A DNA stretch of 64,000 bases from Spirochaetota bacterium. GTDB lineage: Bacteria > Spirochaetota > Brachyspiria > Brachyspirales > JACRPF01. The notes beneath the pieces are model-generated. The model was not told the DNA's origin, ran no database searches, and saw nothing but the letters and a program-made list of their open reading frames with translations. Made by a program: the position numbers and the translations under genes. Where the stretch lies: contig JACRPF010000015.1 in the NCBI GenBank assembly GCA_016214035.1, positions 62,001 through 126,000 on the forward strand, written 5' to 3'. Of this stretch, positions 18,722 through 44,363 are shown one piece after another (position 1 is the first letter of the stretch; each line of letters begins with the position of its first letter).

Positions 18722-19657
18722 CTAACTCCGGCTGACGGTTTTTTGTCCGCCCTTACTGCTTCCGTACACTTTCCCGTGTATCCTTCCCCGTACAATGCCC
18801 GTCACGTCGCCTTTGACATCCCCCTTCACATCACCGCCCACTTCGCCGGTGATATTCCCGAACACGCTGCCGTCGATATCGCGGTCGACCCTTCCCGCCA
18901 TATCGCCCGTGATGTCGCCGCGTACATTGCCGCACAGATGGAAAAAATCGAACCAGTGCGATTTGACATGACCGTCCTTTGAAATACTGCCGACCGTCCC
19001 GTATACGTTGCCGAAGACAACGCCGCTGATATCGCCCGCCACACCGCCCCGTACGGCGCCTGCTATTTTTCCGCGTACGTCACCGCCCACGCCCCCGTCG
19101 ATGCTGCCGGCGATTTTCCCGGTGACCGATCCGCCCACGCCTTCGCGGACATTGCCGGCAATTGAGCCGCCCAGATCACCGCCGATGCGCTTTACATTAC
19201 CGCTCACATGCCCCGTAAGATCTCCCGTTACGTCGCCGCGTATGCTGCCGGCCACGCTCCCCGAGACGTCACCCTTCACATCGCCGTTCACATTGCCGGC
19301 GATGCTGCCCGAGAGATCGCCTTCAATGTCCCCGTGCACATTGCCGAACACCTTGCCGGCGAGCGGGCCGCGCACCGTGCCGTTCAGATTACCCATGATC
19401 TTTCCCCAGAAACCGCCGTCGATATCGCCGTTGTAATTGCCGGCGATGCTGCTGTGCATTCCCTGTGTTGGCCGACCCTGCCCGTTGCGTTTTGCATGAG
19501 CGGCATCAGCGTTCGACTGCCGCGGACGTGTGCCGCCTGACGAATCGGTATGTCCTGCGGCGGTATCCTGCATCTCATCAAGCAGTTTTTCGCCTTCGCC
19601 GGGAGATATCTGTCCTTTCTGAACTTTTTTGAGAATATCCATCATCCGCTTGTTCAT
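18722..19657 (-). CDS. SHOCT-like N-terminus plus Gly-x-Val/Ile-x tetrapeptide-repeat protein
   Basis: A 311-residue protein. Residues 1-30 (MMDILKKVQKGQISPGEGEK) form a short SHOCT/DUF2089-C-like helical hairpin also found in the upstream neighbour and regulator. After a polar linker, residues about 70-300 are an almost unbroken series of four-residue units Gly-x-(Val/Ile/Leu/Met)-x, often alternating Gly-Asn, Gly-Asp and Gly-Ser, broken once by the non-repeat SKDGHVKSHWFDFFHLCGN. No signal peptide or membrane anchor. A regular hydrophobic residue every four positions suggests a stacked beta structure, as in bactofilins or adhesin-type beta-helices, but with a shorter period. Last gene of the DUF2089 unit. 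Function unknown. Confidence 0.85.
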   Translation of the reverse strand: MNKRMMDILKKVQKGQISPGEGEKLLDEMQDTAAGHTDSSGGTRPRQSNADAAHAKRNGQGRPTQGMHSSIAGNYNGDIDGGFWGKIMGNLNGTVRGPLAGKVFGNVHGDIEGDLSGSIAGNVNGDVKGDVSGSVAGSIRGDVTGDLTGHVSGNVKRIGGDLGGSIAGNVREGVGGSVTGKIAGSIDGGVGGDVRGKIAGAVRGGVAGDISGVVFGNVYGTVGSISKDGHVKSHWFDFFHLCGNVRGDITGDMAGRVDRDIDGSVFGNITGEVGGDVKGDVKGDVTGIVRGRIHGKVYGSSKGGQKTVSRS

Positions 19658-19671
19658 ATGCCGTATGCTCC

Positions 19672-20355
19672 TCAGTTATTTCCGGAAATCTTTCCGCGAA
19701 CTCTGCCGATGATAGGCCCCTTGACGGAACCCTTCACGTCGCCGTTGACCACGCCGATAAGCGGGCCGTTGATATCGCCTTCAACATTGCCGCCCACTGT
19801 GCCGGTAAGCGGACCGTATATGTCGCCTTTCACGCTGCCGTGCACACTGCCGATGAGCGCGCCTTTGATATCACCGTCAACGTTGCCATACACCTGCCCC
19901 ACCATGGAACCGCCGATGGACCCGTTCACATCACCCTTCACGGTGCCGGCGAGATTCCCGCCGATGGAACCGTGCACGCTGCCTTTCACGATGCCGAAGA
20001 GCCCGCCTTTGATGTTGCCTTTCACGCTGCCGTTGATGCGGCCGCGCAAGTCTCCGTTCACATCACCCTCGATGTCGCCGTCGATCACCGTAGCCGCTTC
20101 GCGCATCTCGTGCCGGGCGCGCTCGAACGCGGTTTCAATGGTGTCGCCCAGCGCCGAAAACGCGCCGGTCATAGAGTCCCAGAAATCACCGTCGCCGCGC
20201 GCATATGTTTTCTGGCGTCCGTCTTTTTTCTGCTCATCCTTCGCGTCGTCGTCCGGCGGTGCGTACCCGAGGTCCTTGAGTTTTGCACGGCCTTCCTCAA
20301 CGCTCATCTCGCCTTTGCGGATCTTTTCCAGAATGTTCATTATTTTGTCGTCCAT
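19672..20355 (-). CDS. second SHOCT-like plus tetrapeptide-repeat protein
   Basis: A 227-residue paralogue of the neighbouring repeat protein. The start DDKIMNILEKIRKGEMSVEE is the same short helical hairpin; a central acidic/charged helix (about residues 60-100, with FWDSMTGAFSALGDTIETAF) follows, then about 115 residues of Gly-x-Val/Ile-x repeats, rich in GSVHGSV, GDVNGSI and GPLIG units. The ATG at 20355 lies one base after the stop of the DUF2089 gene, with AGGAG just upstream, and is preferred over an in-frame ATG at 20412 inside that gene. No export signal, so both repeat proteins are probably cytosolic scaffolds. Function unknown. Confidence 0.85.
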   Translation of the reverse strand: MDDKIMNILEKIRKGEMSVEEGRAKLKDLGYAPPDDDAKDEQKKDGRQKTYARGDGDFWDSMTGAFSALGDTIETAFERARHEMREAATVIDGDIEGDVNGDLRGRINGSVKGNIKGGLFGIVKGSVHGSIGGNLAGTVKGDVNGSIGGSMVGQVYGNVDGDIKGALIGSVHGSVKGDIYGPLTGTVGGNVEGDINGPLIGVVNGDVKGSVKGPIIGRVRGKISGNN

Positions 20356-20356
20356 A

Positions 20357-20749
20357 TCATTTCTCCTGTTTTTTATCGCCGGACTGCCAGGTGCCGATGA
20401 CACCGGCCGCATCGTCGATGGAAATATCGCCGCGGCTTAACGCCTCAAGCACATCGGTCTTGTCGCCCTTTCGCCGTACCGGATATCCCATCGCGGCAAG
20501 GACGTCGTCAAGACGCGAACGCACCGTGGGATATGAAATGCCGAGCACCTTCTCCACTTCCTTGATGTTGCCGCGGCATGCGAGAAAAACCTCGGCAAAG
20601 GCCGTCTGTTCACCGTTGAGCATGCTCAGTTTTCCGGTGCCGAACTGCCCCTCCAGTTTGCTTTTGCATCCATCACACTGAAGCTGTGTGACGACATACG
20701 CTCCGCCGCACACGGGACATTTTGACGGAATCAGCCACTTTTTTGCCAT
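20357..20749 (-). CDS. DUF2089 zinc-ribbon/HTH regulator
   Basis: A 130-residue protein of the DUF2089 family. The N-terminus has a zinc ribbon CPVCGG...CDGC (residues about 10-29), then a helix-turn-helix ACRGNIKEVEKVLGISYPTV RSR-type segment, and a C-terminal SHOCT-like hairpin LEALSRGDISIDDAAGVIG matching the N-termini of the two following proteins. This shared hairpin suggests the regulator and repeat proteins bind each other or a common partner. Probably an autoregulator acting at the palindromes upstream. The start ATG at 20749 follows AAGAGGAATTG. Confidence 0.9.
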   Translation of the reverse strand: MAKKWLIPSKCPVCGGAYVVTQLQCDGCKSKLEGQFGTGKLSMLNGEQTAFAEVFLACRGNIKEVEKVLGISYPTVRSRLDDVLAAMGYPVRRKGDKTDVLEALSRGDISIDDAAGVIGTWQSGDKKQEK

Positions 20750-22337: not shown

Positions 22338-22405
22338 AGGTAAGTCTCCTTGACGATGACCAGTATACCGTCTTCATGATTCATGTCAATGAATCGCTGA
22401 GGTGC

Positions 22406-22475
22406 GGGGAACACCGGACAAGGGAGCATCCCTCGGCTACGCTCGGGAACCGTGCTCCCTTGTCCGGTGTTCCCG
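22406..22475. repeat. long perfect inverted repeat, copy 1 of a dispersed hairpin element
   Basis: GGGAACACCGGACAAGGGAG plus CA (22407-22428) is exactly complementary to 22453-22474, giving a 22-bp stem with a 24-nt loop. The loop holds ATCCCTCGGCTACGCTCGGG and AACCG. There is no T-run, and the element sits between two divergent genes, so it is not a simple terminator. A diverged copy lies at 36999-37056 on the other strand. Confidence 0.85.
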
Positions 22476-22595
22476 CGACAACCTTCGCACGTCGTGCAAC
22501 ACTAATACGTATATATAACCGTAAGCTCATGAACATAAGTCAAGCGCGCTGACGAAAAGCTCATGAACCTTACAAATATTTTAAGGAGGTGATTT

Positions 22596-22982
22596 ATGAA
22601 ATCACTCAACGGAACTTCGAAGCGGGAATTCGCGATACGGATTCTCAACGTTCTCACGACCAACGCCGAAGCGGCAAAGCCCGCAGGCGTGGACACATCG
22701 GTGAAGGCCGCCAGACTGAAGGCGCTCATCGACGCGGTATTCGCGGCCAAGGATGCGCAGCTTGCCATCCAGGCACAGTCGCTCGCGGCGACGAAACGCG
22801 CGCGTGAGGCGCTTGAGGATGCGTATGCGGAAGCATCCGCCGCCGTCGATCTGTTCGCCGGATGTCTCGGCAAAAAGGATGCACTGGTGCATCGCCTCAA
22901 GAGAATCCGTGACGAAGTGTCGCGGGGATCTCCGGAAGATGCGGCTGCCGCACCGGATACCAACGAACAGAAGACCGCATAA
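22596..22982 (+). CDS. small helical protein of unknown function, strong ribosome site
   Basis: A 128-residue protein predicted to be almost all helical and rich in Ala and Lys (AVFAAKDAQLAIQAQSLAAT and following). It has one Cys and no membrane segment. I do not recognise a family; phasin-like or nucleoid-associated proteins have a similar composition, but that is only a resemblance. The start is certain: TAAGGAGGTGAT, the full complement of the 16S rRNA 3' end, stands just before the ATG, pointing to high expression. It ends in a strong terminator and seems monocistronic. Two direct repeats AGCTCATGAAC (22524, 22558) lie upstream. Confidence 0.75.
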   Translation: MKSLNGTSKREFAIRILNVLTTNAEAAKPAGVDTSVKAARLKALIDAVFAAKDAQLAIQAQSLAATKRAREALEDAYAEASAAVDLFAGCLGKKDALVHRLKRIRDEVSRGSPEDAAAAPDTNEQKTA

Positions 22983-23002: not shown

Positions 23003-23037
23003 ACCCGGACGGGATGATTATCCCGCCCGGGTTTTTT
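23003..23037 (+). terminator. intrinsic terminator of the 22596 gene
   Basis: ACCCGGACGGGAT (23003-23015) pairs with ATCCCGCCCGGGT (23020-23032) with one mismatch, followed by a run of six T. Confidence 0.92.
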
Positions 23038-23078
23038 ATTGCATAATTTCATCAAAAAACAGCAGTTCTAATCCATCT

Positions 23079-23404
23079 TACAGAGCTTTCACGATATCGC
23101 ACCGGGTTGCTGCGGTATCGTACCGCCTCCGTACACCTTCTTACGGCCGTTCTACGCCGGCGTACAGCCGCTATAATCAGGTATCAGCGTTGTAAGATAA
23201 CGTACGGCGTCTGTGCACCTTCTTACCGCGGCTGTAAGAGAGCTTACGGACACGATATGATATCGTACATACCTGCCGCATGAGCGTACGGACCCGGTAC
23301 GCCGGTGCAGAACTGTTGTTTACTGCAGGATAACATACGGCCGGAAACGGGCAGTATGCACTAATGCGGCGTACAGCTCACTGACGTGCGCTATTCACCG
23401 TTCT
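23079..23404. promoter_or_regulatory. non-coding region with TA steps phased every 10-11 bp
   Basis: No gene is seen from 23040 to 23457. TA steps, nearly all within TAC or GTA, lie at 23121, 23132, 23142, 23153, 23163 (spacings 11, 10, 11, 10) and, after a 2-bp phase slip, at 23182, 23193, 23203, 23224, 23235, 23245, 23256, 23266, 23287 and 23298 (spacings 11, 10, 21, 11, 10, 11, 10, 21, 11). The gap at 23214 has TG instead. Weaker continuation is seen at 23362, 23372 and 23392. The bases between are mostly G+C. The region ends at the -10-like TATACT (23409-23414) of the following kinase gene. Confidence 0.75.
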
Positions 23405-23457: not shown

Positions 23458-26400
23458 ATGAAAAAAAAATCTGAACCAACGGTACCCGCGGAGGATGACG
23501 GCCGGCAATTGACCCGCATCCTTCCCATGCTCATCCTGATATCACTGACAGCATATCTTGTTGTTTTCATCTCCGGCTTGTACTATAAAGACAGGAATGT
23601 GCTCGCGGTGACGGTATGCGGCGGCGCCATGCTGCTCGTGCCGTATATCCTGTTCCGCCGGCGGATGTTTACCGCAAGCAGCTGGGCACTCTCTCTGAAC
23701 ATGATTATCAGTGTCACCCTGCTGGCAATGTTCGGACAGGGATATAATGATATCGCCATCTTCGTATTTCCCGTCATCCTGTTATTGACCGGCATAACCC
23801 TGAAACGCATTTTTGTTCTGATAAATACCGGGCTGATGCTGGCAGTTATCGCCTGGCTTGTCCTTGCCCAGAAATTCGGCTGGTTTATACCCGTGCCGAG
23901 TCCGCCATCATACGGTATCGATTTTATCCTGCTGACGGCAATAATGCTGATCCTGGCGTTCGCCATCGATCTTTTGACGAGGAATATGCGCAGCAATCTT
24001 GAACAGGCGCAGAGTGAGCTGGCGCAGCGTAAACTCGCGGAAGAAAAGCTCCGGACAAGCGAAGAAAGTTACCGCCAGCTTTTCGATGCAAGCCCCGACG
24101 GCATCGTGCATATCGGACCCGACGGACGTATTACCCGTGCGAATATCATGGAAGCCCGGATGTTCCGCTATGATTCGCCGGAAAAGCTTATCGGTGTTCA
24201 TGCCACACTGCTGGTGGCGCCTTCTTCGCGGGAGTATTCCGCGGAGATAATGAAACGCCGCCTGAACGGCGAGCATATCGACATGCAGGAGTACGAGCTT
24301 GTCCGAAAGGACGGAAGTACGTTCCACGGCGCCGTTACCGCGTCAGTCCTGCGCGATGCCGCCGGCGCAGTCTCCGGATATATATGCACTACACGGGACA
24401 TCACCGAACGGAAAATAGCCGATGATGCGCGCATGGAGAGCGAAGTGCGGATCCGGGCATTTGTTGAGCAGGCGCCTATCGCCATCGGTCTTTTCAATCT
24501 TGAAGGGCATGTCCTTTATATAAATAAAAAATACGCAGAGGTGCTTGGGCTCGGCAGCATCGACGATGCTATCGGACGTCCCGCATACGAGTTCTTTGCG
24601 CCGCAATTCCGCGAAGAAAGCAAAGAGCGAACACGGCGGCGGACAATGGGACTGCCGGTGCCGCCCGAATATGAATCGGTAGCACAGCGTGCCGACGGTA
24701 CAACATTCCCCGTGCATCTGGCTGTCGGTCAGATACATCTTTCAAGCGGTATCGCGAGCATCGCATTTCTTACCGATATCACTGAGCGCATAGAGACAGA
24801 ACAGCAGATACGCGACAGTCAGGAACGGCTGGCATTGGCAGCTACCTCGGCCCAACTGGGCATATGGGACTGGGACATCGTCAACAACAAAATGACCTGG
24901 GACGATCAGATGTATCGCCTTTATGGCGTATCTAAAAAATCCGCTCTTTCCGGCATCGAACTATGGCAGAACGGTCTGCACCCCGATGACTTTGCCTACG
25001 CGTGGGAGGCATGTCAGGCGGCAATGCGCGGAGAAAAGCCGTACAATATCGAGTTCCGGGTAAAACATCCTGACGGAGCGGTGCGGTACATAAAAGCAAA
25101 CGGTATTGTACTGCGGGATGAACACGGCAATGCCATCCGCATGATCGGCGTCAATCACGACATTACCGAGCGCAAGCAGACTGAAGCGAAGATTCAAGAG
25201 AAAGACATCCAGTTCAGAAAGCTTTCAGCCAATGTTCCAGATTTGATTTTTCAATTTACAAGGAAACCTGATGGCAGCTATTGTGTTCCGATAGCTTCAG
25301 ACGGCATCAAGAACATTTTTGGGTGTTCGCCGGAAGATGTGCTTGACGATTTTACTCCGATTGGGAGAGTGATTTACCCCGAAGATGCGGAAAGAGTAAT
25401 AAGCGACATCGAATATTCTGCAAAGCACTTGACTTACTTTACCTGCGAGTTTAGAGTACAAATACCCGGCAGGGAAGTTCAATGGATTTATTCCCGGTCT
25501 GCGCCGGAAAAACTGGAAGATGGCAGTATAACCTGGTTCGGCTTCAATACAGATATAACCGAGCGCAAAAAGGCAGAACAAGTACATCTAAAATATGAGC
25601 AGCAACTGCAGCAAAACCAGAAGCTCGAAGCCCTTGGAATTCTCGCCGGCGGCATTGCGCACGATTTCAATAATCTTATGGGCGGCATATTCGGCCATAT
25701 CGACATGGCTCGTGAATATGCCGCCGATGAAAAAAGCGAGCGGCATCTGTCACTGGCGATGAACGCGCTTGAGCGGGCACGCGGACTTACCGCGCAGCTC
25801 TTGACGTTTGCAAAAGGCGGCGATCCGGTCCGGAAAATCGGCCGTCTTTTTCCGTTCGTCGAGGAAACCGTACGGTTTGCGCTCAGCGGCGCGGCAGTCG
25901 CATGCACGTTCGATGTGCTGCCGGATCTCTGGGCTTCCAGTTTCGATCGCAGTCAGATTGCCCAGGTCATCGACAATCTGGTCATCAATGCCCAGCAGGC
26001 CATGCCGGCGGGCGGGATGATGACCGTGACCGCACGTAATAGTTCGTTCGCGGAAAAGGAACATCCGCTCCTCCCGAAAGGCGATTACGTCATGCTCTCC
26101 GTGAAGGACACGGGCATCGGCATACCCAAGGAACTGCAGTCACGCATCTTCGACCCGTTCTTCACCACGAAAGAAAAAGGACACGGACTCGGCCTTGCAA
26201 GCAGTTATTCCATCGTCAGCCGTCATGGCGGATGCATCACCGTGGAGTCCGAGCCGGGGAGCGGCAGTACATTCACGGTGTATCTGCCCGCGTATGCGGC
26301 CTCAGCCATATCCGAGATCGAAATACCGGCGCAGCACCATACCGGCAGCGGCACGTTCGTGGTCATGGATGACGAAGAGATAATGCGCAGCACCATCGGC

Positions 26401-42389: not shown

Positions 42390-44363
42390 CTAATACTTCT
42401 TGAATTCGCCGTCTTCAAGGTCACCGGGATTGTGCATATCAAAGGTATAGCCTTTCGGTTTCACCTTCCCGGCAGCGGCCGCCACGGTCTCCTTGATTTC
42501 TAATTTTTGCTTATTACCGTTCTGACCGCCGTTTGAATTCTGCTGATTATTCACCGGCAGCACATGCGCGGCTGCAAGTACCGGCGGCGTATGCACCGCT
42601 GTATTCTGCTGCGTTTGGTGTATTGCACTGTGCGCTGCAGGGTGCTTCGCTGAACCGGACGACGCACGCTTTCCTGCAGATGTTTCCGTGTCATCATCGA
42701 TCTTGAAAAAAGCTATTGTATCCTGCAGCTGCATCGCCTGCGATGAAAGCTCTTCTGCGGTCGAGGCAACTTCCTCGGAACCCGATGCATTCTGCTGAGC
42801 GATCTGTGATATCTGCTGCGTGGACGCGTTCACCTGCTGTACGGCGCTGGATACCTGCTGTATAGCCCCGGATACCTGTTGTATAGCTCCGGATACCTGC
42901 TGTACGGCGTTATTTATCTGCTGAGAACCGTTGCTCTGTTCGCCGCTCGCGGCATTAATCTCAGCGACAAGCTCCGCCGTCTTCTGAATATCGGGAACAA
43001 GTTTCTCGAGCATACTGCCCGCGCGTTCGGCAACCTCAACGCTTGATTTCGAAAGCACGCCAATCTCTCCGGCAGCCATCTGGCTTCGCTCCGCAAGTTT
43101 CTGCACCTCGCTTGCGACCACCGCAAAACCTTTGCCGTGTTCGCCGGCGCGCGCCGCCTCTATGGACGCGTTGAGCGACAGAAGATTCGTCTGCCGCGCA
43201 ATCTCCTGGATAATGGATACCTTATCCGCTATTTCCTTCATCGCCTTAACCGTTTCCTTCACCGCTGCTCCGCCTTCTTTCGCGTCGGAGGCGCTTTTCT
43301 GTGCGATCTTCTCGGTCTGGCTTGCGTTATCCGCGTTCTGACGTATCGTCGCCGTCATCTGTTCCACCGAGGCTGAAACTTCTTCAATTGACGATGAGAC
43401 CTGTTCCACCGAGGCTGAAACCTCCTCCACTGATGATGATACTTCTTCGATGGACGATGACGCTTCCTCCACACTCGACGCCTGTTCGCTTGCGCCCTGT
43501 GACAGCTCCTCCGCCGATGAACTCATCTGTTCGCTTCCCGATGCGACATTGACCGCTGAACTTTTCACCGAGACGACGATTTCAGTGAGTTTTTTGAGCA
43601 TAGCGTTGAGCGCATTTGTAAGCGTGCCTATTTCATCCTGCAGTTTGAGGTGTTTCTCATCGATATGCGTGGCAAGATTGCCCTCGGCGATATCGTTGGC
43701 GAATTTCACACCCGCGGTAAGCGGTATCGTTATACCGCGTGTGATGATAACGGCGATGGCGACTGCGGTGATCACTCCGATAATGAGCAGAAGTATGGAT
43801 ATGGTCCGCACCGTGAAGTATACGCCGTCATATTTTGCGTCAGAGGCCTTTGCAATATCCTCCATCTCTTTTGACAGATCACGAAGGGGAACCTGCATGT
43901 CTTGAAGATGCTTATCAAGATCCTCGTCGATATCTACCATTTTCTGGGCGTTGGCGGCCTTATTGTTCGCCAGAAGCACCGGTTTGAGCTGCGTCTCATA
44001 CACATCTATCATTCCTTCGGTCTCCTGCGTCGCTTTTTCAACCCACTTCTTTTCCTCGTCTGTCTCGGCTATCTTTGCGAGATCCTTCATCGTCGCCCGT
44101 GCTTCTTCGCTGTATTCTTTCCAGGTTTTCTCAAGCCCGGTTGATATGCCGTTAATCTGGGCGTCCGCCATTACCGTGTACAGCTTATATCCCACGCGGC
44201 GGGCTTTCTGCGTGGTTGCATCTTCCTTTGAATGTTCATACACCTCATCCTGCAGCGTCTTCATCTGCTGCATCTGCACCGTGTTGTATATCACGAGCCC
44301 TATCATGATGGCCAGCAACGCTCCGAATCCTAAAAATAACTTCATCCCGATTTTCAATTTCAT
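42390..44363 (-). CDS. methyl-accepting chemotaxis protein 3, extended coiled coil
   Basis: A 657-residue MCP with first membrane helix about 10-30, periplasmic helical bundle to about 185, second membrane helix, HAMP ([20 protein letters not shown]) and the usual tip [20 protein letters not shown]. Relative to the other two MCPs it has 28 extra residues (four heptads) in each arm of the cytoplasmic hairpin: [14 protein letters not shown] units before MTATIRQ and VSGAIQQ-type units after INNAVQQ. The tail ends EDGEFKKY. I start it at 44363 (AAAGGAGC upstream), not at 44432. First gene of a sigma-54-type operon with cheW3. Confidence 0.95.
42834..42917. repeat. four 21-bp tandem repeats inside MCP3 (descending arm)
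   Basis: Units of the form CTGCTGTATAGCCCCGGATA plus C begin at 42834, 42855, 42876 and 42897. Each encodes one heptad on the minus strand. Confidence 0.85.
43359..43442. repeat. two 42-bp tandem repeats inside MCP3 (ascending arm)
   Basis: CTGTTCCACCGAGGCTGAAA begins both 43359-43400 and 43401-43442. Each copy encodes two heptads on the minus strand, matching the added length of this arm. Confidence 0.9.

Follow-up and report, generated by a model that had tools for sequence, protein, structure and literature searches.

The window analyzed here, a stretch of 64,000 nucleotides from a Spirochaetota bacterium (contig JACRPF010000015.1, positions 62,001 to 126,000 of the forward strand), contains a non-coding array in which TA steps recur in phase with the DNA helix. 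The array lies between a gene encoding a protein of 128 amino acids (aa) and a sensor kinase gene at position 23458. In window coordinates, the features of this locus are as follows.

22495 to 22525, plus strand: promoter-like motif TGCAACAC-N5-CGTATA-N6-GTAAG, common to most full-length genes of the 128-aa family and the gene for an ECF sigma factor
22521 to 22573, plus strand: conserved 5' leader with a two-part stem (GTAAG...CTTAC); 10 predicted pairs, 6 of them compensated among nine leaders
22596 to 22982, plus strand: gene for the 128-aa protein, predicted to be all-helical, of a paralogous family of about 17 copies (~125 aa; 17 matches in the genome, alignment, AlphaFold2)
23003 to 23038, plus strand: Rho-independent terminator between gene and array, with 13-bp arms (23003 to 23015 and 23020 to 23032; 92% complementary) and then a T run
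23057 to 23069, plus strand: left inverted end of the array, AAACAGCAGTTCT, as read from the sequence; alignable in all four close copies
23072 to 23308, no strand assigned: phased array of degenerate 21-bp units, dyad symmetric, with inverted left and right halves (lag-21 z of 7.7 to 8.0)
23309 to 23321, plus strand: right inverted end of the array, AGAACTGTTGTTT; kept in one sister copy and replaced in two

Upstream of these features, between a gene for an outer-membrane-type, PQQ-repeat-like protein and the 128-aa gene, lies a long near-perfect hairpin (22401 to 22479), which draws spurious microRNA-family matches. Additionally, the minus strand of positions 18722 to 20412 encodes two adjacent proteins that are built of short G..GD.. 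repeats and look bactofilin-like, and then a 130-aa protein.

A first-pass annotation had described TA steps spaced by 10, 11, or 21 bp between 23121 and 23298, and the comparison with shuffled sequence that it suggested confirmed them. With 2,000 dinucleotide shuffles as the reference, this region contains 11 TA-TA pairs at lag 21 versus 1.7 expected (z = 7.9) and 6 each at lags 10 and 11 versus 1.8 each (z = 3.4 and 3.5, respectively), with none at all at lags 12, 13, 20, and 22. Its Fourier peak, at 10.4 bp, was not matched in height by any of 2,000 shuffles. The reported single phase shift of 2 bp is likewise present, the TA steps clustering at 0.52 to 0.57 and then at 0.33 to 0.38 of a turn, as is the G+C between them: TA/WW steps alternate with G+C at 10.5 bp, both here and in several other degenerate arrays. 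Weaker traces had been described out to 23079 and 23392; the wider region (23079 to 23404) does peak at 10.5 bp (P = 0.0045), but phasing at 23330 to 23404 is weak, and the natural limits of the array, marked by the inverted ends, are at approximately 23057 and 23321. Within these limits, the units read as 21-bp sequences of the form CTTACRGCCNCCGTACGATAT, running in opposite directions in the left and right halves. The dyad score of the array (23072 to 23308) is 2.75, versus 1.13 in column shuffles, none of which (0 of 500) reached the observed value.

No second non-coding array was found within the 64-kb window, in line with the claim that no other intergenic region there is of this kind, but many exist elsewhere in the genome. 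The array is, in fact, a dispersed repeat of the 5.2-Mb assembly (22 contigs), a property that the first-pass annotation had missed, together with the linkage to the upstream gene. Three close copies are located at C11:60421 (87% identity), C11:23193 (minus strand, 82%), and C17:43576 (83%), and a diverged copy at C18:185189 to 185499 matches on both strands owing to the quasi-palindromic structure of the array. In an alignment of the four close copies, including that of the window, 77 of 252 core columns are variable, without a single gap, and 18 TA steps are common to all four. Variability is lower at TA columns than elsewhere (0.19 versus 0.33) and has a 10.5-bp component along the alignment (P = 0.012). 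The helical phasing of the window array thus looks constrained. Flanking sequences of the close copies are either different or pairwise common, as after segmental duplication. Since the other copies flank other, unrelated genes, the proposed control of the kinase at 23458 is unsupported, and the kinase is most likely a bystander. A similarity search with the array in 60 relatives, the nearest of which belongs to another genus, gave no match, and conservation of its place upstream of a kinase therefore cannot be demonstrated; a pattern search with the consensus unit brought little or no gain over a reversed control.

The same copies bear on the idea that the array works as RNA, with tandem hairpins that would sequester the neighboring protein or be processed by it, in the manner of a type III toxin-antitoxin system or a CsrB-like decoy. 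Many units are dyads that could form hairpins, and a single copy folds somewhat better than shuffled sequence (z = −3.5 and −2.9), but compensatory changes among the four copies were seen in 0 of 61 pairs on the plus strand and 1 of 63 on the minus strand. Moreover, the array lies past a terminator and at some loci 5' of a promoter, and an RNA function gives no reason for a period of exactly 21 bp. Rfam gave no match at the gathering score. We regard a role as RNA as hardly probable.

A scan for TA phasing at 10.5 bp (~0.86 Mb) ranked four of the five known copies first to fourth and that of the window sixth; when extended, it led to arrays of other sequence types. A sequence-blind autocorrelation scan was then applied to 2.05 Mb read base by base (~40% of the genome). 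It yielded, at z > 5, 14 self-similar non-coding loci, with best lags of 21 (seven loci), 42 (five loci), 64 (one locus), and 18 (one locus); at a second window size, the best lag was 21, 42, or 64 in 16 of 18 such loci. In 400 kb of random stretches from a sister genus (genome G001), no non-coding array of this type was found. Nearly all of the 29 arrays listed have a high lag-21 signal and low signals at lags 20 and 22, and the folded unit is dyad symmetric (P < 0.05) in about two thirds of them. Most of their units are mutually unrelated in sequence (e.g., TTCACAGTCGAAGGCGCTGCG, CCGCACGACCTTGCGGGAAGT, GAGAAAACCGTCCGCTCGATC, CACGCATCCCCGTGGGGCGGT, and GACTCTCGGCACAGCGAGTTA). The TA or TAC character, which the first-pass annotation took for the key feature, is confined to some types; several sister arrays keep the 21-bp period with only 0 to 2 TA steps per 100 bp.

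That annotation had also proposed that TA-step-flexible DNA wraps an HU/IHF-like or histone-like protein and thereby controls the kinase. The alternation of TA/WW steps with G+C at 10.5 bp would fit wrapping, and so would the greater 10.5-bp WW phasing of degenerate than of homogeneous arrays (Spearman coefficient of −0.58, P = 0.0002), a statistic that, like those on TA, is biased because several arrays were found via TA phasing and some are of one type. Many sister arrays, however, keep 21 bp without TA or WW phasing. No histone-fold match (PF00808) exists in the genome, nor does a full HU gene; the only trace of the latter is a weak, partial PF00216 match (28 bits) inside a 470-aa frame. 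Given, in addition, that copies of the array flank unrelated genes and that it is unmatched in 60 relatives, wrapping by such a protein is quite improbable. As for HU itself, the partial PF00216 match recurs in several relatives of the same order, and a full HU/IHF gene was found neither in this genome (G000) nor in G002, G005, G010, G014, G018, and G022 of the same order; most other families of the phylum, as well as G001, do have one.

Twenty-one base pairs also equal seven codons, and the arrays might have expanded by slippage, as minisatellites or as heptad-coding DNA that has decayed and lost its translation. Some frames are open in several of the homogeneous arrays, and the genome does contain coding 21-bp repeats, such as that of the chemotaxis receptor (42832 to 42909 of the window). 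The window array and its copies, on the other hand, carry stops in all six frames, lag-21 identity is even across codon positions, and other codon multiples (18, 24, and 27) are not favored outside genes. Slippage, for that matter, accounts neither for 77 variable sites free of indels nor for the linkage to one gene family. This origin is already disfavored, and we consider it unlikely.

That linkage concerns the gene directly upstream of the window array, for which about 17 relatives exist in the genome. In the 2.05 Mb, a lag-21 signal (z > 5) was present within ~480 bp of all 10 family genes and of 5.4% of 1,531 other genes, a comparison set of open reading frames from a simple caller that itself includes genes near arrays and true coding repeats. 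None of the 10 family genes had a signal at lag 18, 19, 20, 22, 23, or 24. Copies outside the 2.05-Mb sample agree, with arrays at L053 and L064 to L068; family gene L059 has no array, and a contig end truncates L070. The array is usually located 3' of the gene's terminator, with five loci (L061, L067, C18:34543, C3:85838, and L214 of genome G142) at which it is found 5' of the promoter. By one search, the family was found in only 4 of 393 genomes of the phylum, and by another in a fifth. Arrays accompany three of five family members in G001 and, in G142, which belongs to another order of the phylum, L197 (unit GGCAGAGCTTGCCCTAAGTGG, z = 16), L213 (unit CTTACACAGAGCCTGGTATTC, z = 18), and L214 (unit TGTAGA...TCTACA, z = 8.8). 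Family genes L193, L196, and L210 of the other order are without an array, and none was found at family members in G174 and G107.

Likeness between arrays is limited to pairs of genes whose proteins share 65% identity or more, among them a cross-genus pair (L054 and L055); L051 and L053, with proteins that are ~69 to 70% identical, nevertheless have unrelated array types. About 18 arrays are solo, with no full family gene in the vicinity, and 10 of these 18 match gene-linked types (W, i.e., the window type, B, CTGCAT, L061, and L065). From the likeness among kin genes and the solo copies, we conclude that arrays travel with the gene, disperse alone, and drift or get replaced, always at 21 bp. 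The window array is linked to the upstream gene and not to the downstream kinase; it is a member of a class of intergenic arrays with a period of 21 bp, or two helical turns, beside one family of helical proteins.

Some further observations concern individual arrays. The notion that homogeneous arrays occur solely beside genes was dropped, homogeneous solo arrays being present at C3:142250 and C1:454750. The latter (C1:454750 to 455110), of the L065 type, adjoins a gene that, by our reading of its product, resembles an IS256-kind transposase. Contig C7 ends, downstream of its L053 gene, in the same CGAGACAGCTCGGCAAGGCAA array with which C12 begins; the assembly was probably interrupted by this array, whose full length would then exceed the visible part.

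The AlphaFold2 model of the 128-aa protein is all-helical (pLDDT of 87, pTM of 0.57), with helices at residues 6 to 22, 24 to 30, 35 to 91 (57 residues), and 96 to 109. Foldseek returned nothing significant for this model in PDB (E ≤ 0.001) or BFVD, and the family had no significant relative in Pfam, NCBIfam, PHROG, PADLOC, or PDB sequences, where the lone low E value comes from a short overlap with k-cTRP5, a designed protein, and no individual stretch of that overlap passes. Short peptide patterns of the family returned nothing from collections of genome contigs and viral contigs. Most family proteins are basic (pI of 8 to 10), with a basic tail, and the paralogues are followed by similar terminators. 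In the 2.05 Mb, the promoter-like motif occurs before seven family genes, one MKKI-type gene, the ECF sigma factor gene (C1:519457), and the divergent neighbor of the latter (C1:519344). It is a putative ECF promoter, and its presence before the sigma factor gene and its neighbor, too, suggests an ECF regulon. The divergent pair (L155 and L156; G000 C1:519326 to 520145), both members of which lie behind the TGCAACAC...CGTATA motif, comprises the gene for the ECF sigma factor (matching Pfam Sigma70_r2/r4) and one for a protein of 208 aa that matches fn3 weakly. The MKKIVINLTLP... gene (173 aa, no family match) carries the same motif at C12:180176 and C11:60726, and sits just past a B-type array at one of these loci and a W-type array at the other. 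Finally, the structured leader, also present at L054, L057, L058, L061, L063, L066, L067, and L070, is possibly a new cis-regulatory RNA of the 128-aa family.

As the best explanation, we tentatively favor the arrays being platforms of dyads, spaced by two turns, on which protein dimers, most likely of the adjacent gene's product, would assemble on one face of the DNA. Two-turn spacing puts each dyad on the same helix face, as cooperative side-by-side assembly of dimers would need. The dimers might form a nucleoprotein filament or a wrap, for which the product of the adjacent gene is the obvious candidate, and the array would then act in the manner of phased operator arrays, such as those of partition systems. 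Each pair of array and protein would keep its spacing because geometry matters, with the base sequence drifting or being replaced. Several findings speak against such an assembly: the 128-aa protein has no recognized DNA-binding fold, the solo arrays lack a full family gene nearby and some family genes lack an array, the array lies 5' rather than 3' of the gene at five loci, the similar proteins of L051 and L053 stand beside unrelated arrays, and slippage alone could give a compact spread of identical units.

Plasmid and phage iterons, phased repeats of ~17 to 22 bp bound by a protein encoded alongside, have a comparable layout; here, in contrast, no replication initiator was recognized, and the copies lie scattered over large contigs. 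The assembly on one face that we favor finds a parallel in the plasmid ParMRC centromeres, in which tandem, often helically spaced sites (parC) lie beside the gene for a small protein (ParR), as they do here beside that for a putative DNA-binding protein. In ParMRC systems, the DNA wraps on ParR, and parC repeats vary in sequence and spacing between cognate families (11 bp in R1, 10 bp in pB171, 17 bp in pCW3, and 20 bp in pSK41) (PMC9426499). The present arrays differ in that their period is fixed at 21 bp, ~17 paralogues occur in one genome, the array is usually past the gene's terminator, and the protein is not recognized as ribbon-helix-helix. No ParM or ParA motor gene was found among the neighboring genes inspected, which were those of the window and of a few other loci.

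The main rival, only slightly less probable, is a gene-associated interspersed repeat without host function, mobile or replicating and REPIN/BIME- or MITE-like, that is born beside a family gene and dispersed as solo arrays by an enzyme that acts in trans, with the 21-bp unit reflecting how the dispersing machinery measures DNA. This would account for the solo arrays that match gene-linked types, and the inverted ends of the W and B types have TCAAAAAACARCA in common, as read from the sequence; terminal inverted repeats are not evident in the L063 to L066 arrays. In RAYT systems, the gene is bordered by its own palindromic REPs, BIMEs form beside it (PMC2817692), and solo copies are dispersed (PMC2817692, PMC3116915); the arrays here resemble such repeats in being mostly palindromic and in occurring both beside the gene and dispersed through the genome. 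Three Y1 (IS200/RAYT superfamily) transposase-like proteins are encoded in the genome, but none of their genes has a 21-bp array in its 1.5-kb flanks, and no search identified the family protein as a transposase, the family having no match of any kind above noise in Pfam, NCBIfam, or PHROG. Unlike in REPs, the units are arranged head to tail at 21 bp, are low in copy number, and are unrelated between most paralogues although the period is fixed. Clean target duplications were not seen, and the window's locus and L002, as well as L002 and L004, share flanks as in segmental duplications. The BrickBuilt MITE minisatellite of Porphyromonas gingivalis (PMC4596501) is similarly intergenic, with tandem units about two helical turns long and small inverted ends. 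Its 23-nucleotide unit and single sequence family set it apart from the 21-bp unit, the many sequence families, and the gene-family linkage observed here. On the features tested, the arrays do not qualify as REP/RAYT or histone-type sites and, judging from the neighborhoods read, probably not as ParMRC; searches of open-access papers turned up no account of gene-linked, helically phased 21-bp arrays.

Bacterial intergenic repeats are normally defined by a shared sequence. The property common to the arrays described here is a length, 21 bp, that is kept across unrelated sequences and, in two orders of the phylum, is linked to one gene family. It is possible, if uncertain, that selection acts on their geometry (dyads two turns apart, without indels) and leaves the sequence free, in which case the arrays would form a previously undescribed track of fast-diverging, helical DNA-binding proteins under the control of an ECF sigma factor. 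If proteins do assemble on one face of these arrays, the class would amount to a set of natural experiments on helical phasing and would provide a search principle, that of constant period and free sequence, for elements that tools based on sequence similarity miss.
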